Of a stretch of DNA of 45,750 bases, positions 10,250 through 45,683 are shown one piece after another (the stretch's first letter is position 1; the number at the start of each line of letters is the position of its first letter). The stretch spans positions 1 to 45,750 of the forward strand of contig JAUNNI010000017.1 of assembly GCA_030531555.1 (NCBI GenBank), given 5' to 3'. The DNA is from Eubacteriales bacterium (GTDB taxonomy: Bacteria; Bacillota; Clostridia; Lachnospirales; Lachnospiraceae). A program made the translations under genes and the position numbers. Below the pieces are notes generated by a model. It searched no databases. It was not told the DNA's origin and was given only the letters and a program-made list of their open reading frames with translations.

Positions 10250-11281
10250 CTATGATTTCTTACGGAACATATCTTTCAGCTTCATATATCGAAGCTTGAT
10301 GGAAGACCAACGATTCTCCATGTCATTGAGCTTAATTCCCATTGCTTCAAGTAAAGACTCATCTTCCGTCTGCTGGAAACAGTCGTAAGCCCGATCTACT
10401 TTTCCAAACATCATATAAGCGCGGCCTTCCATGAGCAAATATCCTTCATACTCACTTTTCTCATAGGCTTTATGAAGATGCATGGCACCGTCATCCACAT
10501 ATCCTTTGCTTACCAGCAAAAGACCTTTTAGTGCAAGCAGATCCGATGCCTCCGGCTCCAGCTGTAAGGCCTTATTCATCTGTTTTAGACCTTCTTTCAC
10601 AAATCCCAGATGATAGCAGGCCAAAGCCTGATAATAATAGCCGTCTGGATCTTTTCGATCTTTTTCGCACAGCTTTTTGGCATAAGCCTCCAAAGTCTTC
10701 AAATCACGGATATCCTGACATTCTTCCGCAGTCACAAGGCCCGCCCATTGCTCACAGGCCGCTTTACAGGAGGATATATCTTTCATTGCCGCTGGAATGG
10801 TATGAGTCTCTGCAGTATGATATCGCATCATTCGATTTTTTCCACCATACTCATTCATCAATCTCCGTAATGGAGCAAATCTTGCATCCTCCTCTTCGAT
10901 TACCTCATAAATATAACTTTTCACAAACCATCGAACCGTGGTGGTCTGAGCCTCCTCGGGAAGCCAGATTACATCACTGGAGTATGCCCGGATATTTCCT
11001 TCTAAGAAAAGAGATGGAGTATACATTTGGTTCCAGATTTCTGCTTTTTGATACCAGCCGATCACCTGGGCACGATCATCTTCTACCCTGGCGAAGACAA
11101 CAGGAACATCATGAAGCTCCTGTGTACTCACCGTTGCTTCATAAAATGTGGATAAATCAATGGCTTCGCCATCAGATTTTTCCCTGGAACGACTCGATGC
11201 ATAGCAGAAACCGGCATAATCAAAGAATTCATTGAATGCCAGACTATTTTCGTTTTCTATTTTCACCAGCAAAATTGCCAT
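10250..11281 (-). CDS. TPR-repeat protein of the TIR cluster, function unknown
   Basis: 343 residues from the ATG at 11281, chosen because AGGGAG lies 7 nt upstream; the frame is open five codons further. The stop of the preceding lipoprotein gene is one nucleotide before this start (TGA-T-ATG), so translation is probably coupled. The first ~160 residues form an unknown domain containing VVFARVEDDRAQVIGWYQKAEIW; the pattern of a strand followed by GWY resembles modules seen in some nuclease-associated proteins, but I cannot assign it. From about residue 200, tetratricopeptide-like repeats follow (DPDGYYYQALACYHLGF, ALQLEPEASDLLALKG, YLLMEGRAYMMFGKVDRAYDCF). No signal peptide or membrane helix is seen, so it is cytosolic. 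It may be a scaffold linked to the cytosolic TIR domain (inference). Confidence 0.75.
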   Translation of the reverse strand: MAILLVKIENENSLAFNEFFDYAGFCYASSRSREKSDGEAIDLSTFYEATVSTQELHDVPVVFARVEDDRAQVIGWYQKAEIWNQMYTPSLFLEGNIRAYSSDVIWLPEEAQTTTVRWFVKSYIYEVIEEEDARFAPLRRLMNEYGGKNRMMRYHTAETHTIPAAMKDISSCKAACEQWAGLVTAEECQDIRDLKTLEAYAKKLCEKDRKDPDGYYYQALACYHLGFVKEGLKQMNKALQLEPEASDLLALKGLLLVSKGYVDDGAMHLHKAYEKSEYEGYLLMEGRAYMMFGKVDRAYDCFQQTEDESLLEAMGIKLNDMENRWSSIKLRYMKLKDMFRKKS

Positions 11282-11282
11282 A

Positions 11283-13097
11283 TCATTCTCCCTCATCCAT
11301 ATCTATCTCAAGATAACGGTTTTCATATTTTCTCGCCTCAGCAAAAATACCTTCCTCACGGGCAGCCGCATAAAATGCATCTTTCCAATCATCCATCCTG
11401 CCGCCATGACAATTCAGATATATATTACATTTTAATGGTATATTTTCAGGATTGGATTCAAAAGAGTAGTATCCAATCCTTACCCTGAACTGCTCCTCGC
11501 CCATCAAAGGCTCACAAGGATAGAATATCATGGTCATTCTATCTTTCGCATCCATAAATTCCGTATAAGCCGCCAGATCCCTGGCCAGCTCTTCTACCTT
11601 AAGTTCCTCTGGATCAAGATGAAGTTTAACGGAAAATCTATGATACATATAGCTGATGTTAAAGCTTGCTTCTGGATATTTTTTTCGAATCTCTTCTTGC
11701 AAAGCCTCCCGATTCGTAAGATCCGGCAGTGGAAGTTCAAAGATTTCACTGTTGCCAGTCCCTGTATCATCCGCATAATAAGTCAGCTCGATATCATAAG
11801 GAAGTTTTTCTCCTGTAAGGATTTTTTCCAGGAAACGGGCATACGGATTGTCTCTGGTAAATGTATTGTATTCCCCAGAAGAAAAACAAAACTGATCAAA
11901 TACCATACTTCCCTGAGGCTTCTCCTCCAATATTTTTTTTGCAATTGGAAAATCCCCTATCATAAAGTAGTTTTCCTTGGAGAAAGAATCATTATAATAA
12001 TCACTAAAACGAGCCATGATCTTACCCTGATCTAAGTTCGTCTCCAGAGTAAGGCTCGTATCAGAAACCTGAATCTTCTGATCGTCATAGATTCCATATG
12101 AATTGGAACAAAGGGCGCTCATGAGCCCCTCATTGACCTGCCCTTTGATATCAAGACTAAGGATTCCATCTGTATTTTGTGAAAGTTCGTATTCCATGGC
12201 AAGCTCATCCAGCCTTGACCGAAAGACTTCCATCATCTTATTTTTTTCATTGAGGTAAGGAATATATCCATTTTTCGGACCAAAAACAAAGTGGTAGTAT
12301 CCATCTTTCCATTCCTTATCCTCATAAAATATCTTATAAGAATAAGGAGCCTTAAGTCTTTCATGGCTCATGCTATAGAGGATATACTCCTTATCCATTT
12401 CTGATGATTGGGAACAGTCGATTCGAAGCGTATCCTGGTCCATCTTGGTCAATACATTTTGGGTTCCTCTTGCTACCACAAGATCACTATACTTTGTCTG
12501 AAGTTTCTTTATCTCTTTTTGGGCTTGCTGGGTGAAAATTATCTCAAGATAAGTATTTTCCAGCGAGCTCAAGTCATCAATAACTGGAATTTCGTCCCTG
12601 GTTTCCTCTGCAATCGCTTGCGAGCTCTCCTCGGATTCTTCCCCTTCTTCCTGCACATTTACCATTTCCATACTTTCAATATCCGATGGCTGTATTTTTC
12701 TCAGTTCGAAAAAATCGCTCGTATAATTTGAAATTCCAAGAAAATTCTTTGATACCATTTTGCCGATGGAATACCCTCTGCAATCACAAAGATAATCTTC
12801 CACAAAAGCCTCTACACCCATCTCCTGGCAAACTGATTCATCAAAATGAAGCTCAATGATATCCTCTTTTTTCTCTAGCGTATATTTCCCCTTCCCAGCA
12901 TAATCATCCAGTCTTTCTTTCAGAAGATTGAAATCATGGGGATTCTGATTTCCAGATAAAATCACTTTGTAGGCAGCTCGTTCTACCGAAGCTTCCTGTT
13001 TTTGAGAATCTGAAGCTCCACAGGCGCAAAGAAGCATAGATAGCAGGCTTAGACAGAGCAAAATAAATGATATGGCAAATGATTTTTTATTCTTCAT
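11283..13097 (-). CDS. Large lipoprotein of the TIR cluster, function unknown
   Basis: 604 residues. The N-terminus is a type II signal peptide (KKSFAISFILLCLSLLSMLL) with lipobox LCAC; Cys26 is the likely lipidated residue. The mature protein would sit on the outer face of the membrane. The rest is acidic and rich in alternating strand/helix segments without a family I recognise; several sections look alike (repeated short beta-alpha segments such as YAGKGKYTLEKKEDIIELHF and LAMEYELSQNTDGILSLDI), suggesting repeated small alpha/beta domains. The gene overlaps the upstream TIR gene by 11 nt and abuts the TPR gene downstream. The tight packing argues that the three products work together. The start follows GGAGA with 9-nt spacing. 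Confidence 0.85.
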   Translation of the reverse strand: MKNKKSFAISFILLCLSLLSMLLCACGASDSQKQEASVERAAYKVILSGNQNPHDFNLLKERLDDYAGKGKYTLEKKEDIIELHFDESVCQEMGVEAFVEDYLCDCRGYSIGKMVSKNFLGISNYTSDFFELRKIQPSDIESMEMVNVQEEGEESEESSQAIAEETRDEIPVIDDLSSLENTYLEIIFTQQAQKEIKKLQTKYSDLVVARGTQNVLTKMDQDTLRIDCSQSSEMDKEYILYSMSHERLKAPYSYKIFYEDKEWKDGYYHFVFGPKNGYIPYLNEKNKMMEVFRSRLDELAMEYELSQNTDGILSLDIKGQVNEGLMSALCSNSYGIYDDQKIQVSDTSLTLETNLDQGKIMARFSDYYNDSFSKENYFMIGDFPIAKKILEEKPQGSMVFDQFCFSSGEYNTFTRDNPYARFLEKILTGEKLPYDIELTYYADDTGTGNSEIFELPLPDLTNREALQEEIRKKYPEASFNISYMYHRFSVKLHLDPEELKVEELARDLAAYTEFMDAKDRMTMIFYPCEPLMGEEQFRVRIGYYSFESNPENIPLKCNIYLNCHGGRMDDWKDAFYAAAREEGIFAEARKYENRYLEIDMDEGE

Positions 13098-16000
13098 TTT
13101 TTGCTCTCTCCTTTCCCATGGTAATCATATCTTCATAAGAATACCGATCAAAGTAGCCCAGATGGCAGGTCTTTTCTGAAACATTTTTATCAATAGTGTA
13201 AATTCTACCGGTCTCAGCATCGATATCATAGGCACAATTCGCCTGATAAAGTAAGCCAAAATTGGACTCTTCCAGATAAATTTCACACATCGCATTACTT
13301 TTCTTACCCAATTGGATTTTAGTACTTGCAAATACAATATCCAGAACCGGTTTTGTGGTCTTTCCGGCATCATAAGAGAACGTATCATAATGGAACATAG
13401 CTGCCTTTAAGCTTTCGCCGTAGGAAGGAAGATCGATATCATTTACAATCACTCCATCTGATAGTCTACACTGATACAGTTTATCAAAGGCTAGATAATA
13501 AAGGTATTTTCCTTCTGGATCAATGCTGATTCCGCCCAAAAGATCTATTAAATTTTCTTCTTCCCCAATCTTTCTTTCATAATCCACATGGCAGATATTT
13601 GCTCCTGACATATCATAAACATGAATACCACTTTGTTCTGCCGTAGCAATATATTTGCCATCCTCACTCTCTGTCAGAGTGAATTCTTCCATATCATTAT
13701 TCTGATAAATATAATCTGATATATCGATATCAAAAAGATTTTCTCCGCTTTTGGCTTCTATTGCGTGTAACTTCGCATACTTTTTATCTAAAATATAAAA
13801 AATCAGATTCTTTTTGGAAGAAATCACTTGGATGTCATAAGAGATTTTTACCGGAATATTGATAATTTCCGTTTTTCTTGTCTTCAAATCGCTCTTTACA
13901 ATACGAATTCCATGATCCAAATTGGAATAATGACAAGTATAAAGGGAGCCCTGATCATAAAGAATCTGCTTCCCATTGATTTGATCTTTTGAAAGGAATA
14001 TTTGCTTCACCTTCTTTTTATAAGACTTTAAATCAATACTTACCTGGTAGGCCGCATATTTTGCTGTATCGTTATAACTTTTATAACATACAAGAAAGGA
14101 TGCTTTATTATCCTCCAAAGACAGCAGAGAAATATCTTTTACCAATTCATCATCGCTCTTTGCAAAAAACGCCTCATACTCTTTTTCCTTTTCTGTCAAT
14201 CCATCACGCAGGATGGCATAGCGATCTCTTCCGATATCATCTGCAGGTGTTAAAGCAGTTTTCTCCTCCTCAGCAGATCTAGGAAGAATATCTTCTTCTT
14301 TAAAAGCAATGGTTTTTCCATTCTTTTTATCTCTGGCAATAAAAGCAAAGTGATTTTTGCCCCATTGATACTCAAACTGATAAAGAGCCACTCGAAAATC
14401 ATCATTGGATAACTCAGAAATTTTGTCCAGCCCATTTTCATCATAAGAAGCTTGTTCTTCATGTACAATATTAGGGTCTGCCAAAGCTGCCATATACTTC
14501 AATATACGGTTTTCTTCCGTTTGCAAATAATAAGTTTTGTCCTCATCACTACATGCGTTGTATATGGTTGATGGGTAATTACTCCAATGCATCAGACCAT
14601 AGATCTGGCTTTGATCCGCCTCGGAAAAGTTCAAAATTTCATCGGTAGCAAGGAACATAACCCCCTTGGAAGTCATAACTCGAATAAGATCATCTTCCCA
14701 GGTGATCATCCTCACTGCACCTTCCAGCGGATATTCACGGATCACAGAGCCGTCAGAAAGATTCATTTCCATAAGAGCATGTCCATAATAAGCGATTATT
14801 TTCTCCCGGTTCTTTCCTTCTCCGAATTTTATCCCATAATTCACGCCCGGCATGGTTCTGCCAAATGTTTTCTTCCATCGAACCTTCTCTGTCTTTAAAT
14901 CAAATAAGCTGATGGTAAAAGAAACCTCTTTTTTATCGGAAACGCTCTCCTGTGCCATAACGATACTGTCTCCATCCGGAGAAAAACTGCCACCGGCAAT
15001 ACTATCTTCTAAGGCATAAGTATCTGCAATCTTATTGATTTCCGTATCAAAAAGCACCAGCATCTGTTTCCGATCTTTGGAATAATAAGTCAGAAGAAGT
15101 TTTTTTCCATCATCGGAAACACTGTTGAATTTTAAATTCATAAAATAGTTATCCAGATCAAGCGCGATTTCCTCTTTCTCTTCTCCATTTTCCGTATCTA
15201 TGACAAAAAGCCTGGTCGTATCGGAATCGATTACATATGCCCTATTCGCATCCTGGAAAATCGTATAATCAAAGAAATTAAGAAAGGACTTTTTCCATAC
15301 GATTTCCCCTTTGGCATAATCATAGCAGACAAGGTTTTTCCTATCCTTCAAAAGCACCTTGGTTTGACCCATCAACTGCAATTCGTTGAATACCCCTGAA
15401 GTATCACTTTTAGCATAGGTATAAATATATTTTTCTTCCATGCTTTTCGTATCAATTACATGGGTATGCAAGTCATCTGTTACTAAAAGAAAATGATCAT
15501 CATTCCCCATTGTAACATCATTAATTTTACTGTCATTGTCATACATGGCTGTACATTCATCATCACCATTTACCGTGTAACTGGTTTTGTACATGTTCGT
15601 CGTCTCGGTCAAAAGCTTGGCTGCAGGCGTATAAAATGGTCTCTCCCTCATGATAGAATCCTTAGATTGCGGATCTGGAAGTGCCTGTAAAAGGTATTTC
15701 GATGCCGTATAATAATCATCACTTTCGATATAATCTCCAGCCTCCTTGGTCAGAATCTTGGACTCACTGAGAAGCTGTTCCATGAAAGCCTTTCTATCCT
15801 GAATATTCTGTCGGATCACATAAACAGTGAATGCAGACAGCAAAATAAAGGCAGTTATAGAAGCAAAGAGAATACGTTGGAGACGGTATTTTTTATTTCT
15901 CTGGATCAGCTCGTCATATTGACAATACAAAACAGGCGCAATAATCCTGTAAACCTCAGACTCCAGCTTCTTTAAGGTCTCTTTTTTGCTGGCCGATCTG

Positions 16001-16401
16001 ATATCTGCAGCAAATGGTTCCCCCTCTTCGAGCAGTCTCAAAGGAAATGCCTCCTCCGGCTCACCATCAATGAGAATTGGCAAAATATTCTGAGGAGAAT
16101 GGTACTTTAGGAAAGTATCCACTTCTTTGGCAACCCAGGCAGACTGTCTGGAAGCCCTAGAACACAAAACAACCAAAAACTCTGAATTTTTCAGCTGTTC
16201 TTCAATCTCCGCTGCCAGATTATATCCCACAGAAAGTTCTTCCTGGTCTCGAAACACCCTGTTAATCTTCTTTTTACCATGCGTTTTCTGTATTTCACGA
16301 GGCACTTTATAGTGCTCTAATTTCTTCTGCAACCCCTGAGCAACTGCACTGTCTACCTCAGCATGTTTATAACTTATAAAAACATCATATTTATAGCTCA
16401 T
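13087..16401 (-). CDS. TIR domain - single transmembrane helix - propeller-like sensor protein
   Basis: 1104 residues. Residues 1-150 form a TIR domain: opening strand YDVFISYKHAE, VFRDQEELSVG in the region before helix B, FLVVLCSRASRQSAWVAKEVDTF with Trp89 and Glu93 at the position of the catalytic Glu in NAD-cleaving TIR enzymes. A basic stretch (NKKYRLQR) precedes one hydrophobic helix at about 178-196, so by the positive-inside rule TIR is cytosolic and the remaining ~900 residues are outside. That part has repeated strand motifs (FVIDTENGEEKEEIALDL, SFSPDGDSIVMAQES, VYDMSGANICHVDY) typical of WD40/PQQ-like beta-propellers, probably two. TIR proteins in bacteria act in signalling and phage defence; this one resembles a receptor. 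It is the first gene of a leftward operon with a lipoprotein and a TPR protein. RBS AGAGG precedes the ATG. Confidence 0.88.
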   Translation of the reverse strand: MSYKYDVFISYKHAEVDSAVAQGLQKKLEHYKVPREIQKTHGKKKINRVFRDQEELSVGYNLAAEIEEQLKNSEFLVVLCSRASRQSAWVAKEVDTFLKYHSPQNILPILIDGEPEEAFPLRLLEEGEPFAADIRSASKKETLKKLESEVYRIIAPVLYCQYDELIQRNKKYRLQRILFASITAFILLSAFTVYVIRQNIQDRKAFMEQLLSESKILTKEAGDYIESDDYYTASKYLLQALPDPQSKDSIMRERPFYTPAAKLLTETTNMYKTSYTVNGDDECTAMYDNDSKINDVTMGNDDHFLLVTDDLHTHVIDTKSMEEKYIYTYAKSDTSGVFNELQLMGQTKVLLKDRKNLVCYDYAKGEIVWKKSFLNFFDYTIFQDANRAYVIDSDTTRLFVIDTENGEEKEEIALDLDNYFMNLKFNSVSDDGKKLLLTYYSKDRKQMLVLFDTEINKIADTYALEDSIAGGSFSPDGDSIVMAQESVSDKKEVSFTISLFDLKTEKVRWKKTFGRTMPGVNYGIKFGEGKNREKIIAYYGHALMEMNLSDGSVIREYPLEGAVRMITWEDDLIRVMTSKGVMFLATDEILNFSEADQSQIYGLMHWSNYPSTIYNACSDEDKTYYLQTEENRILKYMAALADPNIVHEEQASYDENGLDKISELSNDDFRVALYQFEYQWGKNHFAFIARDKKNGKTIAFKEEDILPRSAEEEKTALTPADDIGRDRYAILRDGLTEKEKEYEAFFAKSDDELVKDISLLSLEDNKASFLVCYKSYNDTAKYAAYQVSIDLKSYKKKVKQIFLSKDQINGKQILYDQGSLYTCHYSNLDHGIRIVKSDLKTRKTEIINIPVKISYDIQVISSKKNLIFYILDKKYAKLHAIEAKSGENLFDIDISDYIYQNNDMEEFTLTESEDGKYIATAEQSGIHVYDMSGANICHVDYERKIGEEENLIDLLGGISIDPEGKYLYYLAFDKLYQCRLSDGVIVNDIDLPSYGESLKAAMFHYDTFSYDAGKTTKPVLDIVFASTKIQLGKKSNAMCEIYLEESNFGLLYQANCAYDIDAETGRIYTIDKNVSEKTCHLGYFDRYSYEDMITMGKERAKNEE

Positions 16402-16540: not shown

Positions 16541-16580
16541 AAAACACCACGATTTCCAATTAGAAAACCATGGTGTTTTA
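16541..16580 (-). terminator. Terminator after the feo operon
   Basis: AAAACACCA (16541-16549) pairs with TGGTGTTTT (16571-16579), extended by an imperfect inner stem. Read leftward the stem ends in GGTGTTTTTATTT. It lies between the last feo gene and the TIR operon. Confidence 0.65.
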
Positions 16581-16598: not shown

Positions 16599-16745
16599 TC
16601 ATGCCTTTTTACTGCCACATTTCGGGCAGGATCCGGAAGATGGGCAGCCAATACATTTTCTGCCTTTCTTCTTTTCCTTCCATATGTAATAGCAGGCAGA
16701 TCCAACAACAACAATTAAGATTACTCCAACAATAATATCTGCCAT
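16599..16745 (-). CDS. FeoB-associated Cys-rich small membrane protein (P12/PF12669 type), 48 aa
   Basis: A short gene directly downstream of feoB, with AAGGAG 7 nt before its ATG. The product starts with one membrane helix (ADIIVGVILIVVVGSACYYIW), then a Lys-rich linker (KEKKKGRK) and a cytosolic tail with four Cys (CIGCPSSGSCPKCG). This arrangement is that of the FeoB-associated cysteine-rich proteins common in Firmicutes and Bacteroidetes feo operons, thought to assist ferrous iron uptake, possibly by passing or sensing Fe2+. The 15-nt gap to feoB and the terminator downstream indicate it is the third gene of the feo operon. Confidence 0.9.
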   Translation of the reverse strand: MADIIVGVILIVVVGSACYYIWKEKKKGRKCIGCPSSGSCPKCGSKKA

Positions 16746-19233: not shown

Positions 19234-19279
19234 AAAAAATTTCACAAAATGTTTCTCCAAATTTTATTGTTTTGTGAAA
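19234..19279 (-). terminator. Terminator of the PrsW/RyR operon
   Basis: TTTCACAAAA / TTTTGTGAAA 10-bp stem (19270-19279 with 19240-19249), read leftward, followed by TTTTTT (19239-19234). The right arm overlaps the last codons of the transglutaminase gene. Confidence 0.8.
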
Positions 19280-21150
19280 ATCAAATTCCAAAAATCAGGT
19301 TTTTGCCAATACCAATACCTGGAACCATCAAGAGATTTCGAAGCAGAAAATCCTCCATTCTGAATCGACTTCACTGCCTTTTTATAAGCCGCCGCTGTTG
19401 CAAAATGAACCTCCTTCAGAGGCTTCTTCTGCTTTGCGAGAAGATTATCCAGTTTATCTGGTGTATAATCATCCAGTACATATTTATGCCATTTGAAATA
19501 ATTAAACTTGGTTCCCTTTGCGGTTGGCTGTTTCATATTGGTATAGTTATCTTTTGCTTTATGATCTTTGCTCATGGAGGAAGTTGTTTTCATACAATAG
19601 GTATGACTCGCATCCTTATTTTTTCCATCTGTATCAAGATCATCCCATGTAACATCAACCCAATATTTATCACCAGCCAATTGCACGCAATTCCAACCGT
19701 GGGCTCCCATATCTCCTGGTTTGCCGGCAACTCCTTTTACATAATCACATTTAATCCCTAATTCCTGCATAATCAGCTGGAAGGCTTTGGCATAACCGGC
19801 ACAAACGGCTCTTTTCTGTACCAGACATCCATAGGCAGAATAAATCAGCTCATCAAATGGGTCATGAATTGATTGTTTGCAAGATGCCAATCGATCATGA
19901 TCATAGATACAGTTGTTGCTGATGTAATCATGAACATACTCAATCTGCTCGATTTTGCTTTTTTTCTTTTTAGCTTCTTTGACGATTTTTTTCACTGCTT
20001 TATTGAGTTTTTGCTTCGCTGCTTTCTTATCTAAAGTTTGATTCCAATAAGAATAATTGGAAATCGTCAGAGTCATCGTATAGCTATCAAGCCCTCTATA
20101 ACTGGCATTGATTGCCCCACCATCAACCCAATAATATTTTGGATTTTCCAGATGGAAGGCATGAACGCCACACCAGATGGTATCCCAATTAAGAACAGGA
20201 GCTGCAATTTCAAAAGTTCCGCTCATATTTCCTTTTGGAACATCCTCTTTCAAGAAATTATAGACACACAATCCATTTAAATCCAGCTGGTTATAATAGA
20301 ATCCATCGTATTTTCTATAATCAGCAGCTGTCTTAACTACAACCGCTTTTAAACTCATTGGCGCAATAACCGTGGACAGAATTACAGCAGAAAGAAGGGT
20401 TGCAATGACAGTATCCTTCGCTGCTTTTTGGCGTATAATGATGACACCGATCACACAAAGAATCACTGTCACGATTTCATACAGATATCCTCCTTTCAAG
20501 GAAGCATAACGATTGAAAAAGCTGTAGATTGCATGAATAAGGATTGGTACAATCAGCTCATATGGAAGAGCAATTCCCTTTTCACCCTTTTCTTTCTTAG
20601 CAATACTTCTTTTATGCCACGTGGTATAAAAACATCCCATGATAACACCAAGGAACAAATGGGCTGGAATACAGGCAATTGCACGAAGTAAAACACTGCC
20701 GAAACCACCACTTTTAACATAGCGGAAGGCTTCCACAAGACCAAAGCCAAGATATAAGATAACAGCATAAACCATGCCATCAAAACTATAGTTAAAATTC
20801 TTGTTTTTATGGGTCAGAAGACATAAAACTATGGCCCTGATCATTTCTTCTATCAGTGCAAGCACCAAAGCACAAGCTAAGAAATGGGCGATTCGTACAC
20901 TCTCTGAACGATAGAACTGCAAACCATTTCCATCAAAGCTCATATATGGCAGAAAAAGCTGGTCCACTCCTCCTACCAAAACATGTTCCAGGACTGCAGC
21001 CATTGCATAGCAGATCATACCTGCTGCAAATAAAATGGCAAGTAAGGAAATCGGTTCTTTTTCAATGGTATCTTTTCTATAAATATAGATGCATAAGTAA
21101 GCAGTCATCACCAAAAGGATGATGGATGCCGGTATAGAGGTAAGATTCAT
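19264..21150 (-). CDS. PrsW-like intramembrane protease fused to an extracytoplasmic transglutaminase-like domain
   Basis: 628 residues. The N-terminal ~270 residues contain about eight membrane helices with PrsW-type motifs: a paired Glu (Glu101-Glu102 in LALIEEMIRA, where the usual Lys of EExxK is Arg), FGLVE with Glu140, His164 in IPAHLFLG and His206 in ILIHAIYSFF. PrsW members are glutamic-type intramembrane proteases, in Bacillus cleaving an anti-sigma factor. The C-terminal half has a transglutaminase-like Cys-His-Asp triad: Cys450 (RAVCAGYAKAFQ), His484 (GAHGWNCVQL) and Asp499 (YWVDVTWDD). The domain follows the last helix; its side of the membrane depends on helix number, but it is probably outside, where it could cut or link peptides. 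It is the second gene of an operon, 24 nt after the RyR gene, and ends in its own terminator. Confidence 0.85.
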   Translation of the reverse strand: MNLTSIPASIILLVMTAYLCIYIYRKDTIEKEPISLLAILFAAGMICYAMAAVLEHVLVGGVDQLFLPYMSFDGNGLQFYRSESVRIAHFLACALVLALIEEMIRAIVLCLLTHKNKNFNYSFDGMVYAVILYLGFGLVEAFRYVKSGGFGSVLLRAIACIPAHLFLGVIMGCFYTTWHKRSIAKKEKGEKGIALPYELIVPILIHAIYSFFNRYASLKGGYLYEIVTVILCVIGVIIIRQKAAKDTVIATLLSAVILSTVIAPMSLKAVVVKTAADYRKYDGFYYNQLDLNGLCVYNFLKEDVPKGNMSGTFEIAAPVLNWDTIWCGVHAFHLENPKYYWVDGGAINASYRGLDSYTMTLTISNYSYWNQTLDKKAAKQKLNKAVKKIVKEAKKKKSKIEQIEYVHDYISNNCIYDHDRLASCKQSIHDPFDELIYSAYGCLVQKRAVCAGYAKAFQLIMQELGIKCDYVKGVAGKPGDMGAHGWNCVQLAGDKYWVDVTWDDLDTDGKNKDASHTYCMKTTSSMSKDHKAKDNYTNMKQPTAKGTKFNYFKWHKYVLDDYTPDKLDNLLAKQKKPLKEVHFATAAAYKKAVKSIQNGGFSASKSLDGSRYWYWQKPDFWNLIFTKQ

Positions 21151-21174: not shown

Positions 21175-23256
21175 CTAATTTTCTTCCATCAGATTCTTGA
21201 TATTATTGATATCAAGCTGTTTAAAGTCAGATAGAACTTCCATCTTTGGTTTTTCTGTATTCTCACCTGCAGCCTTCCATTTCAAAAGAGCGTAGAAATA
21301 CTCTGCTTTTGCAACCGTAGATGCCAGAGGATAATAAACATCCCAACGTTCATCCAAAGCATCCCAATCTACCAGACAAGTATGAAGACCGCCAAAACCA
21401 TTCGGATCCAGCTCTTTTCTTACATATTTGCACGCTTTCTGTATGCGATTCAATGCTTCTTCGCCTTCTTCCAGAGAGAATGCTTCCTTTTCCAGACTAT
21501 TCACATCTTCTTCGATGGTCGCTAAGGCTTCATCCACACGCTTTTTGAATTCTTCCATAGGCATTGGAACCACACCCATGGAATAAGAAAATGCATTCCA
21601 ACGGATATGTTCCATCTGAGAAAGTTTTTCTAAAAGCAGCTCATTCTCATTCAAGATCTTTGTCATGACTTTCTTTGGATTCTTTTCCTTGGCATCGATT
21701 CCTGCTGCCTTATACATGGCTGGAATAAATGTTGCCGATGCATCACAGCTTAATCGGTTAGAATAGTCATTTTCATACCAGCTGGCCTCATAGAAGGCTT
21801 CCTGCTTTTTCAAATCATTTGGATAGAGGGACTTCGCTTTCCCTTTCACATAAACTTTATGGATTTCCTTTGCTCCAGCATCCAAAGTTCCTTCCCAGAG
21901 ATCGGTTGGGTCTGGAATTGAAATGGTAAGATCTGGTTGATCATAGAAAATGATTTCTCTCTTGGTGCAAGTGGCGATAACCATATCTTTGCGATAATTG
22001 CTGTTTTTTCTATTTCGGAAGAAACGGATTTGGGAAGCCACTTCCTGATTTTTCGCATCCTCTCCCATACAGATTGCAATATAATTGATGCTTTCCCTGC
22101 TCTCATGAAGAAGCTTGAAAAAGCTTTCCGAAAAGGCATCCATCTCTAAAAATTCTATTTCGTAATGAGCAAGCATTTCCTTGTGAATGGATAAAAATGC
22201 TCCCGCTTTGTCTCGATAATTCTTATCAATTACCTGAATTTTTGTCTTCTTTCCAACAAACTGGCTGTTGCGAATGAATTCGCAAAGGACACTCTGCCCC
22301 ACCTGACCAAAACCAAGAATCATGGCCGAGAAGGCATTGTTTGCTTCTCCATTTTCATCAAATGTTACAAGGTCCCAAGGTGCCACGGTCTTCACCAGCA
22401 TTTTAGCTGTCATATTTTTATAAGAACAGATATCTGCCTGGAGGTAATATCCATCTTTTTGTCTTCCCGTCAGGAAAGAAAATTCCTGCTCATCCTCACA
22501 GATAACCGTCATGGTCACATTCATATAATTCACATCTTTATGATCCATGCCCTTCAGAACTTTTTCCAGGAAACTCTTTGTTTTTGAATCATTTTCTCCG
22601 GAAGCAAATAACTTAATCACTTTCTGCTCTGTCTTATCGACTCCAAGTTTTTTCAGCCACTGGCCTTCTGGATCCACCTGATCATCTTCCCAGACAATCC
22701 CGCCCAGATTGTCGATTTTTTCCTGCATTTTATCACTTTGGCACTCTCCGATAAATACAGGATAAATATCATTATCCTTACAGATTTTTTCTGCAAGCTT
22801 AAGCTGGGTCGCATTGTTCGGATAAAATACAACGATTTCTCTTCTCCAGCCAATCACCTTTCCACGAAGGAAACGGATAAAACGTTTTCCAAGCGCTCCC
22901 AACACCACCGCAGCGGTAAAATACATGGCAGACAGCACAGCAAGCCAATAGAAGACCTGCATCCACGCACGCTCTGCAAACCATGGAGCACTACTCATTA
23001 AAGAAGAATAAGAATCACTTCCCTTAAACATGGAAATCGTATCACTAACCGCCTGAATGGCCACGATAAACATTTCTCCAGCGGAATGAATCCCGGTTCC
23101 ATAACCAAGACCATAGAATATCAGTCCAACAAAACCTGCAAAAACAACGGCACAACTATTAAACTTTCGCAGTTCCTTTGGCTTTAAAATCAACGTTAAT
23201 GCCATGGCCAGCATCAATGCAAAGGTTGCTAATAACGTTAAAATCGGATATGTCAT
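21175..23256 (-). CDS. Membrane protein with TrkA-N-like Rossmann and RyR-type domains
   Basis: 693 residues from the ATG at 23256, which has AAAGGA 8 nt upstream; an ATG three codons earlier sits directly on the Shine-Dalgarno. Three hydrophobic segments occupy the first ~135 residues, with a short helix between the second and third; no TVGYG potassium filter is present. A first alpha/beta domain follows (REIVVFYPNNATQLKLAEKI), then a Rossmann core with GFGQVGQSV (about residues 315-323 from the earlier ATG), as in TrkA-N/RCK regulators. Near the C-terminus MEHIRWNAFSYSMGVVP and, ~80 residues on, GGLHTCLVDWDALDERW match the two halves of bacterial RyR domains, proposed ligand sensors. The product may be a ligand-gated membrane channel or regulator (inference). 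It leads an operon with the PrsW-transglutaminase gene and is divergent from an HTH regulator. Confidence 0.8.
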   Translation of the reverse strand: MTYPILTLLATFALMLAMALTLILKPKELRKFNSCAVVFAGFVGLIFYGLGYGTGIHSAGEMFIVAIQAVSDTISMFKGSDSYSSLMSSAPWFAERAWMQVFYWLAVLSAMYFTAAVVLGALGKRFIRFLRGKVIGWRREIVVFYPNNATQLKLAEKICKDNDIYPVFIGECQSDKMQEKIDNLGGIVWEDDQVDPEGQWLKKLGVDKTEQKVIKLFASGENDSKTKSFLEKVLKGMDHKDVNYMNVTMTVICEDEQEFSFLTGRQKDGYYLQADICSYKNMTAKMLVKTVAPWDLVTFDENGEANNAFSAMILGFGQVGQSVLCEFIRNSQFVGKKTKIQVIDKNYRDKAGAFLSIHKEMLAHYEIEFLEMDAFSESFFKLLHESRESINYIAICMGEDAKNQEVASQIRFFRNRKNSNYRKDMVIATCTKREIIFYDQPDLTISIPDPTDLWEGTLDAGAKEIHKVYVKGKAKSLYPNDLKKQEAFYEASWYENDYSNRLSCDASATFIPAMYKAAGIDAKEKNPKKVMTKILNENELLLEKLSQMEHIRWNAFSYSMGVVPMPMEEFKKRVDEALATIEEDVNSLEKEAFSLEEGEEALNRIQKACKYVRKELDPNGFGGLHTCLVDWDALDERWDVYYPLASTVAKAEYFYALLKWKAAGENTEKPKMEVLSDFKQLDINNIKNLMEEN

Positions 23257-23339
23257 ATTTTCCATCCTTTCTCTGTCTCATTCTTATCATTGATAGGAAT
23301 CTCTTCCCTAGATTCTACCACAGATTACCACAATGTTTC

Positions 23340-38420: not shown

Positions 38421-41400
38421 ATGAGAAAACTGAAACACATTTTCTTATGCGCAATTATGGTTCTTCTGTGGATGGTTCTTCCTGGAACTGCTATGGTTGC
38501 TCATGCAGAAAATAAAGAAGATTCGAACATCTTATATGAAGTGAAAGATGTCACGGATTACGAAAAAAGTCCGCAAGTGGAAAAGAAAACCACGAAGGAC
38601 ATTAAAACGATGGCAGATGATGCCATCAAAGATTCCGGTACTCTAGGTAGCAACGTACAATGGAAATTGTACGAGAACGGATTGCTTGAGATCACCGGTA
38701 GTGGTGCCATGGAAACAAATGCCTTCCAAAGTGAAAGTAGTCTTACAATAGAGGGGATTCCTTGGTATTCTTATGCCTCTTCCATTGAGGAAGTTAAAGT
38801 AGGAGAAGGAATCACCTATCTGGGTGATGCATCTTTTTACAATTGCAAAAGATTAACAAAAGTATCTCTCCCAAGTACATTAAAGACTATTGGCTATTGG
38901 GCCTTCTATGAATGTACCATGCTGGAGAATCTTGAGATTCCATCTTCCGTCACAGAAATTAAGCTGGCATCCTTTATCGATGCCCCTTTGAAAGAGATTG
39001 TGATTCCGGATGGTGTTACTGTGATTGAAAAGTATACTTTCCAAGGATGTAAAAATTTAAAAAAGGTACATTTTCCTGCTTCACTTACTACAATCCAGAA
39101 ATCTGCCTTTGTAGAATGTAGTGGATTAAAAGGTCTTTTACTTTTACCAGATACAGTAACCACCATAGAAGATAGTGCTTTTTCCAAAACAGGATATGGT
39201 GCTGCTTATTTTGGTTATCGCTTATCTCAGCTTGGCAGCAAAATATTTAACTCCGTTTCTTCTTTAAAATACGTTACTTTTACAAGTAGCTGTCCTACAT
39301 TTTCAGATACAACATTTTCAGGAAATACCTTTACCGCATATTATCCAGAGTCCATTACTTCCTGGACAGAGGAAAAAAGAACTGATTATGGTGGAACAAT
39401 CACATGGAAAATATATGATGGTTCTTCCATTGCCAATGGAGACTATGGTGATAATATCCATTGGAGTATTGATTTAAACGGAATGATAATTTTAAGTGGT
39501 AGCGGAGATTTGCCTACTAATTCGTCTAGTAGTTCCATCCCTTGGTATACTATCAGAAATACCATTAAAAAAGTTGTTGTTACAGATGGGATTACTAGTT
39601 TAAATTCTTTTGCTTTTTATGGCTGTGAAAATCTGGAACAGGTCATTTTGGCAGATTCCGTTAATAAATTATCTACTTCTGTATTCGAAGGTTGTATTTC
39701 TCTTAAAAAAGTAGATTTCTTAAATAAAGTTTCTGATCTGGGATCCTCTGTGTTTGAAGATTGTAGTGGATTAACAAGTGCAACCATTCCAGACACTGTT
39801 ACATCCTGTTCGTCCTATCTATTTGCAAATTGCAGTTCTTTGCAAACAGTTTCTTTAGGAAGTGGAATAAACAGCTTCTCCACAAGTACTTTTAACAATT
39901 GTGATAAGCTGACTTCTATTTCTGTTTCTAGCGAAAACACTTCCTACTCTTCGGTAAATGGTCTTCTTTGCAATAAAGCAGCAACCACATTGATTGCCAT
40001 TCCAAAAGGATTGACAGAAGTAATCGTCCCTGAAGGAATAAAATCAATAGCAACTTATGTAATCTACTCAAGTAAACAGTTGGAAAAGGTATCACTTCCG
40101 GCTTCCTTAACATCAATTAGTTCCGATAATTTCACAAGATGTCCAAAGCTGAGTCAGATTATTGTAGATCCTTCCAACCAATCCTTTGTGACCCATAATA
40201 ATATGTTATTTAATTATGGAAAAACTGTATTATACGCCGTCACTAATCAAGCGGTTCGTCTTGTTGCTTCAGATTTTCCATCTACTATGACAACGATTCG
40301 AGACGATTGCTTTTATTATAATGACACTCTGACTTCCATAGAGATTCCATCCAGTGTCACTAAGATTTCTTCCTATGCTTTTTACTACTGTGAATCACTG
40401 GAAAACTTAAAATTATCAGAGGGGCTAAAAACCATTGATTACTATGCATTTTATTATTGTAAATCTTTAAAAAGCATATCGATACCAGATAGTGTAACAT
40501 CGTTGGGAGTCGATGCTTTCTATGGTTGTTATAAACTAAACAGTATAACATTGGGGAACGGTTTAACAACTCTCCCTAACTATGTATTTAGTAATTGCAG
40601 CTCACTAAATAAAATTATCATTCCTGCTACAATCACTAACTGTGGTAGTTCAGTATTTAGCTCCTGTTCTTCTTTGGAAGACATTGTTTTTCTGGGTGAT
40701 TTACCAGAGTGTCCTTCCAAAATACTCAGTAGTAGCATGAAAACCAAGATTTATTATCCATCAGATAATACTTCCTGGAACGAAGTAGAGGCAACAAAAT
40801 TTGGAGATGCTGCCATTTTATGCCCATATTCAAATGGAGATTATGGCTCCGCTATACAGCAGAACCACATCGTAATCCCAGGCGGATTTTCCGATGTTGG
40901 TTGTTATGACTTAGGCGCCTGTGATTTCTCCTATACTTCTTCGTCAACATTTTTCCGTCAATATGTGGTAAAAGAAGCGGGCGGAATCTACTTCTTAAAT
41001 GGAGGAAAGCTTCTTTTCCTCAATGAAAGCACTGGTATCATGACCACTTTATCGAATTTTGGTTCGATTAATGCCTGTTATGAAGCCGACGGAATCCTGT
41101 ATCTTGCCTACAGCAATCATATCTATCGCTATGATTTGAAAAAGAATACAGAGTTGAATACCATTACCCTTAATTCTGTCAATGATATTTCAGCAATCGG
41201 TGTAGATTCACAAAATCGGTATTACATTTCCTATAGTCTTGATAGCCGATACGTTGTAGTTCTTTATGATCAGGAAGGCAATAAATTATCTCAAATGTAT
41301 GTCCCTGATCGTGTGTACAGCTTTGATGGATTTGATTCAACTACCGGACGATTCTATATGGAATCCATGGTAAATTACTATTCCTGGGGATATGATCATT

Positions 41401-44400
41401 ATGGTCACGGCCTCACCATGGGAAAAACAACAGGAAACACTATCACTTATATAGATACCAGTAATTCATTCTTAGAATCTGGCCTCATAAGCCAATCCTT
41501 TGATTGTATTGAATATCTGTGTCAGAATAGTGCATACCTTCATCAGGTCAGCGCAGAAATTCTGGATGGACGTTATATGGTAACCACAAGTAACTTGTTG
41601 AACCGAGTACTTCTCATCGATTCCAACAATTACGAACTTAAGTGGTCTCTCGATCGCAAGCTAGATACTCAATCATTAAACAACTATTATTATGATACAA
41701 CCAGTGTAGGGGTTAGAGCTCTGTTAAACCCAAAACATGATACCATTTACGTTGCAAGTAACGACAGTACCATCGAAGAATATGATCTGAAAACAAAGGA
41801 TAATCTTTATTCCTACAAAACTTCCCATCCGGTCTTTGCCCTTTATTCTCTGGGAGATTATTTCATCGCCATAGAGAAAGATGGAACGAATTTCTATCTT
41901 GAGAAAATCAGCTATAAAGATCCTGAACAGATTCAGTTCACTGGAAATCCTACTATGAAAGTGGGAGAAACTCAGCATTTGAAAATAAATACCGGTTATC
42001 GTTCCTTAACTAGCAGCGATCCTTCTGTGGCATCCATAGACCAAGCTGGTAATGTCGCTGCATGGAAAGCAGGAACGACTACCATCACTTTAGAAGCTAC
42101 GGATCATCGTACAGCCACTTTCTCCATTCAGGTAATTGGAAACTCTACAAGCGAAGTAACCGATTCCAACCATAAAGTTTCTGGAACGATTTCCAACAAT
42201 ATATCTGACAATAATTACACGGTATGGTCATCTCCGATGAATTCCTATCTGACAGAAAATACAGATGGAAGCTACATGCGAGTGGAATACATAGCAAATA
42301 CAGGCGTAGTCATTGAAAACTACGGAACAGACTGGACACTCAAATCCACGAAAACACTATTACCTGAGCTTCCAATCTTTGGCGGCTTTTACAGTGGAAC
42401 AGATGCCAACTACCTTGTATATGGTCAGAAGAATGAATCAGATAGTGATGATGTAGAAGTCATCCGTATCGTGAAATATTCAAAAACATGGAATCGTATC
42501 AGTGCAAGCTCTATTAAGGGCGCAAATACTTACATTCCTTTTGATGCCGGCTGTGTCCGCATGATGGAAACCGCAGGAAAATTATATCTATACACCTGCC
42601 ATGAAATGTATGCCAAATCCGATGGAGTACATCATCAGGCCAATATGACTTTTGTTGTCGACGAATCGAATATGTCTATCTTAGACTCCTATTACGATGT
42701 CATGAATATTGCGCAAGCTGGCTACGTTAGTCATTCTTTCAATCAGTTTATCCAAACCGATGGTACTTCCGTATATCGTGTTGACCACGGTGACGCAGGA
42801 CCTAGAGCCGTATCAATTACAAAATGTGCGGTTGATGGAAAAGTGAGTGATGTACGATATATTCTGGCTCATAAAATTAATGGAAATAGTGGTGCAAATG
42901 CAACCGGCGTATCTGTTGGTGGATTCGAATTATCTACAACACATTGTCTTGTGGCTGGTAACTCCGTAGATATGACAGATTCATCCAATTATTCTGCTTC
43001 GGGAAAGAGAAATATTTTCCTGGCAATTGCCAATAAAAATCTGACAAAAACTTCTACCGTATGGCTTACAGATTACGATTCATCCAGTAATATTACTGTT
43101 CGTACTCCTCAGATGGTCAGATTATCTTCCGAACATTTCCTTGTCATGTGGGAAGAATATAATACCAGTTCCCGATTCGTCACAACTAAATTTGTTACGG
43201 TAGACGCAGAAGGAAATAAGAAATCTGAACATACCTCTACAAGAATGCGACTTTCCGATTGTCAGCCTATTGTCACAAGCAAAGGCCATGTGGTATGGTA
43301 CGTCTCTGATGGAAATGAACTGAAGTTCCATCAGCTTAATCCATTTGACTTAAGACAGGGAACAACTGTGGATTTCACTCGTTGTGATGTTTCTTTAAGT
43401 CTTGGAGCTGACATCAGCACCACCATAACCACTCCTTACACAGGAAATGAAATCAAGCCAAATGTTACGGTAAAAGATGATACCAGAGTATTAAGTCCAT
43501 CAGAAGAATACGATGTAACTTATGAGAATAATATCAATGCCGGAACAGCTTATGTGGTAATTACAGGACAAGGAGAATACAAAGGTATCATCCGCAAACC
43601 ATTTATCATTGCAAAAATACCACAGACTCTGATTGTCAGTCCGACAATGCTCAATGTAGTAAAAGATGACAGCGGTACAATTAGTGTGACAGGAGTTGGT
43701 GATATTACAGCAAGTAGTGCAAACAGTAATATCCTTTCCATTAATGCTGGTGTAAGCGAAGATGGAAAAACTATATTTACTTATAAAGGATTATCGACGG
43801 GATCAACCACTATTACCATTCAGGCAACCGGTGATCAAAATCATGATGCAGCAAGTCAAACAATCACTGCAAAGGTAATTCCTACTGCCACTCTAATTGC
43901 GAATGCAGCCATCAATTTAAGCCAAACTTCTTACATCTATGATGGCAACTTAAAACAACCTAATGTCACAGTCATTTACGGAGGACAGACTTTAGTAATA
44001 AACAGAGACTATCTACTCTCCTATGATAATAATCTAAAACCAGGAACTGCCAATGTAACCATATCCGGTATTGGCGACTACACAGGAAGTGTAACAAAAA
44101 CTTTTACCATCAGTAAGGCATCACAAACCATCACTAGCTCACCTCTTACAATCAGTGTAATAAAAGGAAATACTGGCACATTTACCGTAAATGCTTTTGG
44201 AACCATAACTGTCAGTATCCAAGATACAGACATTTTATCCATGACAAAAGATTCTGACGGAAATGGCAATGCTGTCTTCCATTACACTGGCCTGGCATAT
44301 GGTGAAACAACTGTAACCATAAATGCTTCTGGAGATGAAACTCATACCGCAGCAAGCAAATCCATTACTGCTCACGTAATTCCATCCCAGACAGATATGA

Positions 44401-45683
44401 GTTCAGCAAACGTTACACTTTCTCAGAATTCCTATGTTTACGATGGAAATGAAAAGAAACCTGACGTGACGGTCGTTTATGCTGGAAACACACTAATTAG
44501 AGATACACATTACACCGTTACTTATAGCAATTGTAAGAACGCAGGAAGTGCAAAAGCTACAATTGAAGGTATTGGTCAGTATACAGGAAGCATTGAGAAA
44601 ACATATACCATCACACCTCGCTCTATTACAAATGCACAACTAATCTTTTTAGATATTGGTCCTATCCTGGAAGATGGTGTATTTGATATATGGGGAGTGG
44701 TCGATGGAAATACACTTTTAACAAAGTACACAGACTATTCTTCTTCTAGTGCCAGCAGTACTTATTCCGGTGATTACTGCTCATATCTCACAGTTCATTT
44801 AACTGGAAGAGGAAATTATACTGGTACCGTGTCACAAACAATCCATCCAATCTCTTCCAAAGCAGTTCTGTATTCTGCAAAAACTGGTCCAACAGGTACC
44901 ACTTTAAACTGGAAAAAAGAAACTGGTGCGGTTGGATATAATATTTACCGTGTCAAAGGATCACAGATTACAAAACTACTGACCACAAATAAAAATTCCA
45001 TCACAAGCTGGACCGATCCGGAGGTTAAAAATTACAATGCAGGATATAGCTACTACATTGAGTCCTATATCATTACTGCACAAGGTATGAAAATTTCCAG
45101 ACCATCTGACATTGTAAGAACAGTGGCCCTTGAGAAGAAAACCAATGTGATCAGAGCATCCAATAAGGCTTTAGAATATAGCCCTTACAGTCGTAATATC
45201 TCTGTCGGTGCATCCTGTAGTGGCGGAGCAAGATTAACTTATTCCACAAATAACAGTAACATTGCTGTAAATGCTTCTGGCATTATCACTGTCAATGCAA
45301 AATACGTGGGAAGTGCAACGATTACAATCCAGTCTGCAGAAACCAGCGATTATAAAGCAGCGATCCAAAGAATCACTGTAACTGTCATTCCAAGTAAAAC
45401 AACCCTCGCTTCTGTTTCCAATGTAAAAGGTAAGAAGATGTTGGTAAAATGGAAGAAGAACGTATCTGGTGGCGGCTACCAGATCCAATACGCGAAAAAT
45501 TCCAGATTCACCAGTGGACTTAAGACAGTAAATGTGACGAAGAACACAGTTGTTAAAAAGACCATCGCAAAACTTGCAAAAAGTAAGAAATATTATGTAA
45601 GAATCCGAACCTATAAAAACGTCGGAGGAAAAACATACTATTCCAACTGGAGTGTAACAAAAGCAGTAAAAATCAAAAAATAA
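38421..45683 (+). CDS. Giant secreted repeat protein: BspA-type LRRs, propeller-like regions, Ig-like repeats and FnIII
   Basis: 2420 residues. Signal peptide (LKHIFLCAIMVLLWMVLPGTAMVAHA). Two units open with NVQWKLYENGLLEITGSGAM- or NIHWSIDLNGMIILSGSGDL-like segments, each followed by BspA-type leucine-rich repeats (pattern xFxxCxxLxxIxLPxxVxxI, residues about 120-310 and 385-780). Propeller-like stretches follow at about 810-1165 and 1250-1650, split by a Big_2-like Ig domain (KVGETQHLKI...AAWKAGTTTITLEA). Residues about 1670-2070 hold three copies of a YxGNxxKPxVTV...GxGxYxGxxxKxFxI unit alternating with Ig-like units. The C-terminus has an FnIII-like unit (about 2144), an Ig-like unit and a last FnIII-like unit. 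No LPXTG, SLH or GW anchor is seen, so it is shed or bound non-covalently. It is likely an adhesin or host-polymer binding protein. GGGAGGAAAG precedes the start. Confidence 0.88.
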   Translation: MRKLKHIFLCAIMVLLWMVLPGTAMVAHAENKEDSNILYEVKDVTDYEKSPQVEKKTTKDIKTMADDAIKDSGTLGSNVQWKLYENGLLEITGSGAMETNAFQSESSLTIEGIPWYSYASSIEEVKVGEGITYLGDASFYNCKRLTKVSLPSTLKTIGYWAFYECTMLENLEIPSSVTEIKLASFIDAPLKEIVIPDGVTVIEKYTFQGCKNLKKVHFPASLTTIQKSAFVECSGLKGLLLLPDTVTTIEDSAFSKTGYGAAYFGYRLSQLGSKIFNSVSSLKYVTFTSSCPTFSDTTFSGNTFTAYYPESITSWTEEKRTDYGGTITWKIYDGSSIANGDYGDNIHWSIDLNGMIILSGSGDLPTNSSSSSIPWYTIRNTIKKVVVTDGITSLNSFAFYGCENLEQVILADSVNKLSTSVFEGCISLKKVDFLNKVSDLGSSVFEDCSGLTSATIPDTVTSCSSYLFANCSSLQTVSLGSGINSFSTSTFNNCDKLTSISVSSENTSYSSVNGLLCNKAATTLIAIPKGLTEVIVPEGIKSIATYVIYSSKQLEKVSLPASLTSISSDNFTRCPKLSQIIVDPSNQSFVTHNNMLFNYGKTVLYAVTNQAVRLVASDFPSTMTTIRDDCFYYNDTLTSIEIPSSVTKISSYAFYYCESLENLKLSEGLKTIDYYAFYYCKSLKSISIPDSVTSLGVDAFYGCYKLNSITLGNGLTTLPNYVFSNCSSLNKIIIPATITNCGSSVFSSCSSLEDIVFLGDLPECPSKILSSSMKTKIYYPSDNTSWNEVEATKFGDAAILCPYSNGDYGSAIQQNHIVIPGGFSDVGCYDLGACDFSYTSSSTFFRQYVVKEAGGIYFLNGGKLLFLNESTGIMTTLSNFGSINACYEADGILYLAYSNHIYRYDLKKNTELNTITLNSVNDISAIGVDSQNRYYISYSLDSRYVVVLYDQEGNKLSQMYVPDRVYSFDGFDSTTGRFYMESMVNYYSWGYDHYGHGLTMGKTTGNTITYIDTSNSFLESGLISQSFDCIEYLCQNSAYLHQVSAEILDGRYMVTTSNLLNRVLLIDSNNYELKWSLDRKLDTQSLNNYYYDTTSVGVRALLNPKHDTIYVASNDSTIEEYDLKTKDNLYSYKTSHPVFALYSLGDYFIAIEKDGTNFYLEKISYKDPEQIQFTGNPTMKVGETQHLKINTGYRSLTSSDPSVASIDQAGNVAAWKAGTTTITLEATDHRTATFSIQVIGNSTSEVTDSNHKVSGTISNNISDNNYTVWSSPMNSYLTENTDGSYMRVEYIANTGVVIENYGTDWTLKSTKTLLPELPIFGGFYSGTDANYLVYGQKNESDSDDVEVIRIVKYSKTWNRISASSIKGANTYIPFDAGCVRMMETAGKLYLYTCHEMYAKSDGVHHQANMTFVVDESNMSILDSYYDVMNIAQAGYVSHSFNQFIQTDGTSVYRVDHGDAGPRAVSITKCAVDGKVSDVRYILAHKINGNSGANATGVSVGGFELSTTHCLVAGNSVDMTDSSNYSASGKRNIFLAIANKNLTKTSTVWLTDYDSSSNITVRTPQMVRLSSEHFLVMWEEYNTSSRFVTTKFVTVDAEGNKKSEHTSTRMRLSDCQPIVTSKGHVVWYVSDGNELKFHQLNPFDLRQGTTVDFTRCDVSLSLGADISTTITTPYTGNEIKPNVTVKDDTRVLSPSEEYDVTYENNINAGTAYVVITGQGEYKGIIRKPFIIAKIPQTLIVSPTMLNVVKDDSGTISVTGVGDITASSANSNILSINAGVSEDGKTIFTYKGLSTGSTTITIQATGDQNHDAASQTITAKVIPTATLIANAAINLSQTSYIYDGNLKQPNVTVIYGGQTLVINRDYLLSYDNNLKPGTANVTISGIGDYTGSVTKTFTISKASQTITSSPLTISVIKGNTGTFTVNAFGTITVSIQDTDILSMTKDSDGNGNAVFHYTGLAYGETTVTINASGDETHTAASKSITAHVIPSQTDMSSANVTLSQNSYVYDGNEKKPDVTVVYAGNTLIRDTHYTVTYSNCKNAGSAKATIEGIGQYTGSIEKTYTITPRSITNAQLIFLDIGPILEDGVFDIWGVVDGNTLLTKYTDYSSSSASSTYSGDYCSYLTVHLTGRGNYTGTVSQTIHPISSKAVLYSAKTGPTGTTLNWKKETGAVGYNIYRVKGSQITKLLTTNKNSITSWTDPEVKNYNAGYSYYIESYIITAQGMKISRPSDIVRTVALEKKTNVIRASNKALEYSPYSRNISVGASCSGGARLTYSTNNSNIAVNASGIITVNAKYVGSATITIQSAETSDYKAAIQRITVTVIPSKTTLASVSNVKGKKMLVKWKKNVSGGGYQIQYAKNSRFTSGLKTVNVTKNTVVKKTIAKLAKSKKYYVRIRTYKNVGGKTYYSNWSVTKAVKIKK

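Follow-up and report, generated by a model that had tools for sequence, protein, structure and literature searches.

TIR-based bacterial immunity, to our knowledge, senses infection inside the cell. Among described systems, Thoeris and the Toll and Toll-like receptors come closest to the locus reported here, which we also compared with TIR-STING and TIR-SAVED proteins. Two further close comparisons are available: PMC13232231 reports on RyR-domain proteins encoded by phages, which act on the 2'/3'cADPR made by TIR proteins either by binding or by cleavage, with H75, W78, H100 and D117 as the ligand residues of RyDEP, and PMC9503650 describes SLATT two-helix effectors, where a TIR gene adjoins a membrane protein proposed to respond to nucleotide. 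The literature that we searched, which mostly excluded subscription papers, yielded no account of a TIR-helix-repeat receptor in bacteria that has an RyR protein as its partner.

We report the analysis of 45,750 nt of DNA (hereafter the window) from Eubacteriales bacterium (Lachnospiraceae), assembly GCA_030531555.1, contig JAUNNI010000017.1, positions 1 to 45,750 of the forward strand. The features under discussion are:

10250..11296, minus strand: TPR protein, 348 aa, co-directional with its neighbours, TPR_2 over the Pfam cut-off
11283..13097, minus strand: lipoprotein, 604 aa, overlapping the TIR gene by 11 nt
13087..16401, minus strand: receptor-like TIR protein, 1104 aa, with TIR at aa 7-135, helix at 177-195 and a WD40-type propeller
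15997..16383, minus strand: TIR_2 domain with Trp89 and Glu93 (Pfam TIR_2 position; residues from the alignment)
16541..16579, minus strand: terminator-like hairpin, its stem of 17 pairs, standing between the TIR gene and FeoB unit
19264..21150, minus strand: fusion protein of a PrsW-type protease and a transglutaminase-like domain; its gene follows the RyR gene after 24 nt
21175..23265, minus strand: RyR-domain membrane protein of the RyR-A class, 696 aa, with a C-terminal RyR-like stretch

Re-reading of the sequence bore out the gene coordinates, the gene order and the 11-nt overlap between the TIR and lipoprotein genes given in the initial annotation; the lipoprotein and TPR genes overlap by 14 nt when counted from the first ATG or are separated by 1 nt, as initially annotated, when counted from Met6. 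The RyR-A gene lies on the strand of the TIR gene, 4.8 kb upstream, and between the two stand the PrsW-transglutaminase gene, FeoB, the small partner gene of FeoB and the terminator. Since the terminator-like hairpin, which has the longest stem among 16 such sites in the region (11.1 expected), separates the FeoB unit from the TIR gene, the latter probably starts its own transcript. By eye, the small ORF at 16599-16745 behind FeoB resembles an FeoB-associated Cys-rich protein and is followed by a strong terminator-like hairpin; an ORF of 2420 aa lies near the end of the window (38421-45683).

The window TIR protein matches the Pfam models TIR_2 (6e-13) and ThsB_TIR (7.3e-10), both over the cut-off, and TIR (1.4e-7). 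The ThsB_TIR match is one likeness to Thoeris, and another is the separate candidate partner, whose kind of domain can bind isomers of cADPR. The PADLOC ThsB model reaches only 0.0039, the window TIR protein is membrane-anchored with a WD40 ectodomain and the candidate partner is an RyR membrane protein. PADLOC identified no ThsA-type effector among seven window proteins, the RyR protein included, and for this reason we do not file the system as Thoeris. Neither a STING nor a SAVED domain appeared in the Pfam scan of the TIR protein, and where PADLOC matches SAVED_TIR, the match is limited to the TIR stretch at aa 6-111. We file the TIR/RyR system as a variant of TIR nucleotide signalling.

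The initial annotation had placed Trp89 and Glu93 at the NADase position and called for a check against alignments. Both residues are invariant in all 25 aligned proteins; the alignment does not include nine of the 34 loci, which have N-terminal extensions or a frame break or were left aside. Glu93 aligns with the Glu of the WCLDEL stretch of the plant TIR 3jrn in a weak match (E 0.012). The catalytic Glu expected of TIR NADases is thus conserved, and NAD+ cleavage itself is predicted from this pattern. One might suppose instead that the TIR serves only as a scaffold, Trp and Glu being structural and signalling passing through TIR-TIR contacts independently of NAD+ chemistry; the invariance of Glu93 and its alignment with the Glu of TIR NADases speak against this, as does the binding of ADP-ribose products by RyR partners in the single studied case (PMC13232231), and we regard it as very improbable.

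The propeller call was also upheld. PQQ_2 exceeds the Pfam cut-off on the window TIR protein, and a profile of the 25 relatives, with 584 PDB matches at an E limit of 0.01, finds the WD40 protein 2ymu at E 7.4e-49, with its best stretch at profile positions 296-496. The C-terminal ~500 residues lie outside the best-matching PDB and propeller stretches.

A single membrane helix with a basic flank had likewise been proposed after the TIR, and this is what we find: the window helix at 177-195 has a mean Kyte-Doolittle value of 2.25, and a hydrophobic stretch follows the TIR in all 28 proteins measured, at 1.7 or more in 24 and at 1.43-1.60 in the four lowest. The N flank of the helix is net positive in 27/28, and in 20/28 it exceeds the C flank in positive charge, which we grade as a moderate signal for topology; in the relatives L066 and L126 a second hydrophobic stretch lies just ahead of the helix. 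Cys content (1.14% before the helix and 1.10% after it in the window protein, against 1.99% in the exported lipoprotein) does not separate the two sides. We infer a cytosolic TIR and an outside propeller from the topology of one helix and from the need of the TIR for NAD+.

This arrangement of a putatively cytosolic TIR, a single helix and repeats on the far side resembles that of Toll and Toll-like receptors. The TIR of the window protein is N-terminal, however, so that the ectodomain-helix-TIR order of those receptors is reversed; furthermore, the catalytic Glu is conserved here and the candidate partner is an RyR protein, not an adaptor or kinase chain. Repeats of several kinds stand behind the single helix in the TIR proteins whose genes adjoin RyR genes: WD40 in L125, L126 and L132 (by the family model), LRR in L137 (LRR_4, 8.7e-25), L138 (1.8e-30) and L108 (1.4e-10), TPR in L136 (2.4e-22), Sel1 in L096 (4e-64) and MORN repeats in L105 (7e-79). 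The idea of Toll logic in reversed domain order, already voiced in the initial annotation, gains weight because relatives of the same arrangement (L137, L138 and L108) bear LRRs behind the helix. We tentatively suggest that these proteins may form a bacterial class of Toll-like receptors, in which a cytosolic TIR, a helix and an exchangeable ectodomain (WD40, LRR, TPR, Sel1 or MORN) would pass an ADP-ribose-type nucleotide to RyR membrane proteins, some of them K+ channels; we would put this somewhat below an even chance. Long N-terminal extensions were seen in L049, L060, L062, L063 and L073, and in the same genus a protein kinase-TIR-helix-propeller fusion occurs (L098:6056-10429; Pkinase 1.7e-22, TIR_2 3.8e-8). 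Locus L097 encodes a 1334-aa protein (11875-15879) with a kinase domain (4e-13) and an RyR-like motif, together with small proteins that look WXG100-like by eye.

We read the neighbours of 34 TIR-family loci (the window, L044-L074, L097 and L098) from greedily chosen ORFs, in stretches of unequal length of which some stop at contig ends; a gene may be lost under this scheme to a longer ORF on the opposite strand, as was a TPR relative in L075. The TIR, lipoprotein and TPR genes had been taken for one unit, with conservation of their order as the check, and in this the initial annotation does not hold. Among the 34 loci the TPR gene adjoins a TIR gene only in the window; the TPR protein has three strong relatives in 200 family genomes, none beside a TIR gene, those in G058 and G025 lying on contigs other than that of the TIR gene and G067 having no TIR gene. 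HMM and phmmer searches of greedily called ORFs, a procedure in which misses are possible, placed a lipoprotein next to the TIR gene in the window and at the second copy in the same genome, but at none of the other 32/34 loci. Since the TIR relatives generally lack lipoprotein and TPR neighbours, we reject the three-gene operon as a conserved unit and find it unsupported as the functional one. The occurrence of homologues without these partners, named beforehand as a finding that would count against the unit, is thus borne out in part, and some backing for the lipoprotein remains in the second TIR copy of the same genome.

The lipoprotein has a lipobox, LLCA-C, that is read from the sequence. 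Among 24 genomes of the genus and 200 of the family, a search at E 1e-3 retrieved no protein but itself, and this search also missed its paralogue in its own genome. A lipoprotein gene likewise overlaps the second TIR gene of the genome (C14, L044), and the two lipoproteins share 20.5% identity over 380 residues in a weak BLAST match. Their mature parts give a Smith-Waterman score of 101 against 45.8 +/- 7.0 for shuffles (0/300 reach it), and the best other protein among the controls, two families of lipobox proteins, scores 59. The TIR and lipoprotein thus form a real, lineage-local pair. Some 13 kb from this second TIR gene, at L099:17575-19588, lies a pair that by eye is K+ uptake-like, of the KtrB/KtrA type.

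Such pairing could mean that TIR and lipoprotein are self-contained, the lipoprotein being an external co-receptor or ligand trap, the TIR killing by NAD+ depletion in a scheme free of any second-messenger partner, and the RyR gene belonging to another pathway. The gene overlaps, the homology of the two lipoproteins and the FeoB gene and terminator standing between the RyR and TIR genes all favour such an arrangement; we nevertheless judge it unlikely, given the 32 loci at which no lipoprotein partner was seen among the called ORFs and the recurrent linkage of RyR-A and TIR genes described below.

The RyR-A protein has hydrophobic stretches at residues 8, 35 and 104, a weak likeness to TrkA_N at aa 315-417 (0.056, under the cut-off) and an RyR-like stretch at its end; it is homologous to the protein at L045 759-2582 (3e-56). 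The Pfam RyR model (PF02026) does not reach the protein at E 1, and a search of G000 at E 0.01 missed it as well. Nonetheless, when the window protein is withheld from the building of an RyR model, that model scores it at 3.5e-10 (best of 500 shuffles 0.14), and a model that also omits its three closest relatives scores it at 1.1e-5 (best of 500 shuffles 0.77); two of 17 far relatives lacking the motif were set aside in this analysis. E552, H553, R555, W556 and H628 are invariant in ten of ten RyR proteins, forming an E-H-x-R-W motif with a second His. Against the PDB, the profile of the ten proteins matches 6uhi (4.7e-14) and the Bacteroides RyR 3nrt (1.6e-6). A weaker match, to a Kv pore (0.003), presumably stems from the K+ channel proteins in the profile.

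In our own mapping, which takes the ligand residues from PMC13232231, H553 and W556 match the H-x-x-W spacing of H75 and W78, and H628 would fit H100. The H-x-x-W motif and second His appear to be common to the window RyR, phage RyDEP, Bacteroides 3nrt and the animal RyR repeat. The window protein differs from these in that its RyR domain is fused to a membrane and weakly RCK-like body and is linked to a host TIR, and is not a phage countermeasure. From the SLATT effectors of PMC9503650 it differs in having an RyR domain and weakly RCK-like body in place of SLATT.

RyR-A relatives occur in 4 of the 200 family genomes, with a TIR gene near in 4/4: the distance is 4.8 kb in the window and 9.7 kb in G004, the genes are one gene apart in G058, and in G190 the TIR gene, at 56 nt from the RyR-A gene, is a different one that encodes Sel1 repeats. 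With a profile of five RyR-A proteins, a search at 1e-10 of 392 genomes drawn from the order gave matches in 26, and for the linkage count only places at E 1e-80 or better were used (n=20). Eleven of the 20 have a Pfam TIR_2 gene within 10 kb and nine have none; without the window the count is 10/19 where about 0.42 would be expected (P 2.3e-12, a value that treats the places as independent and the TIR genes as randomly spread). At least one linked place occurs in 8/10 genera, counting G058, which comes from the search of the 200 family genomes and not from the 392-genome draw and is excluded from the 11/20. The rows dropped below the threshold were G028, G381, G501, G304, G389, G397, G351 and G549:C1; G028 and G549:C1, the only two inspected, adjoin a TIR match.

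Plasmids offer an independent check on this linkage. In 72,556 plasmid records the sole RyR-A relative is in Butyrivibrio fibrisolvens pNP243, 320 nt directly downstream of a TIR-helix-propeller gene, and the sole relative of the L072-type RyR is in Fusobacterium vincentii NZ_CP084075, 3 nt directly downstream of another such gene; these two records are also the top two plasmid matches for the TIR protein. In the other direction, an RyR neighbour was seen in the stretch read at only 8/34 TIR-TM loci, and only 6/35 Pfam RyR rows in the 200 genomes lie within 15 kb of a TIR-TM match. The TPR gene had been named as the cytosolic partner of the TIR protein; the best cross-genome support falls instead to the RyR-A membrane protein, which the initial annotation did not include, and gene linkage makes it the better-supported candidate partner over the lipoprotein and TPR genes.

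The K+ selectivity filter T[VIL]G[YF]G[DNE] is absent from the window RyR-A protein and present in the partners L045, L095, L107, L109 and L119. Gene orders vary, being K+ channel-RyR, TIR, RyR-A in L126 and TIR, RyR-A, K+ channel-RyR in L136. A K+ channel-RyR protein was considered as the partner in the window genome and set aside, none being detected there. At L108:5391-9532 the TIR-helix-LRR gene lies 1 nt from that of an HD/RelA_SpoT-RyR protein, an instance of RyR linked to alarmone-type enzymes.

At 14/34 loci (L046, L047, L050-L057, L059, L064, L065 and L069) a DHH/DHHA1 phosphoesterase of ~500 aa stands beside the TIR-TM-propeller gene, one of these loci having an RyR neighbour too, and 15/32 of the strongest DHH copies have a TIR-TM match at a distance of 10 kb or less, which in G125 is a weak TIR match. 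In those other lineages the DHH protein could remove the TIR signal. It was rejected as the partner of the window TIR, the window genome containing no match.

TIR-helix-propeller relatives are present in 27/200 family genomes and 3/24 of the genus, the window's own genome included in both. Searches with the TIR protein gave no match among 50,697 phage records, and viral contigs yielded no relative; 11 distant plasmid records match it, none covering 80% of the query, and a further contig scan gave three distant matches to the TIR part only. A phage or plasmid origin for the window TIR was therefore discarded.

The missing phage and viral-contig matches are also in keeping with a housekeeping circuit of envelope or ion balance in place of immunity, in which a TIR-made nucleotide would tune the flow of K+ or other ions, or proteolysis at the envelope, under surface stress. 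The PrsW-transglutaminase gene 24 nt from the RyR gene, the K+ channel-RyR proteins at some loci and the neighbourhood of the window, which shows transport and metabolic genes and no defence island, point the same way, whereas conflict sits better with the patchy presence across the family and genus and with repeat ectodomains that are exchangeable. We regard housekeeping as a possible account, if one that we hold only tentatively.

The reading that we prefer, to which we give a probability of about 0.5, is that a cue at the outside or envelope leads through TIR clustering and NAD+ cleavage at Glu93 to a response of the RyR protein at the membrane. The TIR protein would be a membrane receptor whose propeller, in its inferred outside location, senses a trigger outside the cell or at the envelope, and the lipoprotein would be a lineage-specific helper of this sensing. 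Sensing would cluster the TIR domains on the cytosolic side; there Glu93, if the predicted NADase activity is real, would cleave NAD+ to yield a signal whose identity we take to be of the ADP-ribose type. The RyR domain of the 21175-23265 protein would bind this signal and change the state of the membrane part, and the ensuing change in ion or membrane balance, through a putative channel activity, would perhaps stop the growth of the attacked cell. A defence role against phage is plausible by analogy with other members of the TIR class. This reading builds on the domains, the conserved Glu, Trp and RyR residues and the recurrent neighbourhood of the two protein classes. Several findings weigh against it: the genes and terminator that separate TIR and RyR-A in the window, the nine RyR-A places lacking a TIR_2 gene within 10 kb, the low counts of RyR neighbours at TIR-TM loci and of TIR-TM matches near Pfam RyR rows, the failure of the Pfam RyR model to reach the window protein, its TrkA_N score under the cut-off and missing K+ filter, the lack of a detected K+ channel-RyR protein in the genome, and a Cys content as high behind the helix as in the TIR part.

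The TIR/RyR gene neighbourhood suggests a bacterial outside-in alarm circuit. If this is true, Toll-type reception and RyR-type ligand gating, two themes of animal biology, would be joined in one bacterial circuit, and an outward-looking TIR that hands a nucleotide to an RyR protein would provide a direct test of the sensing of TIR signals at the membrane. It would also help to test if the sensing of TIR products is an ancient role of the RyR domain, as PMC13232231 asks for the animal RyR.
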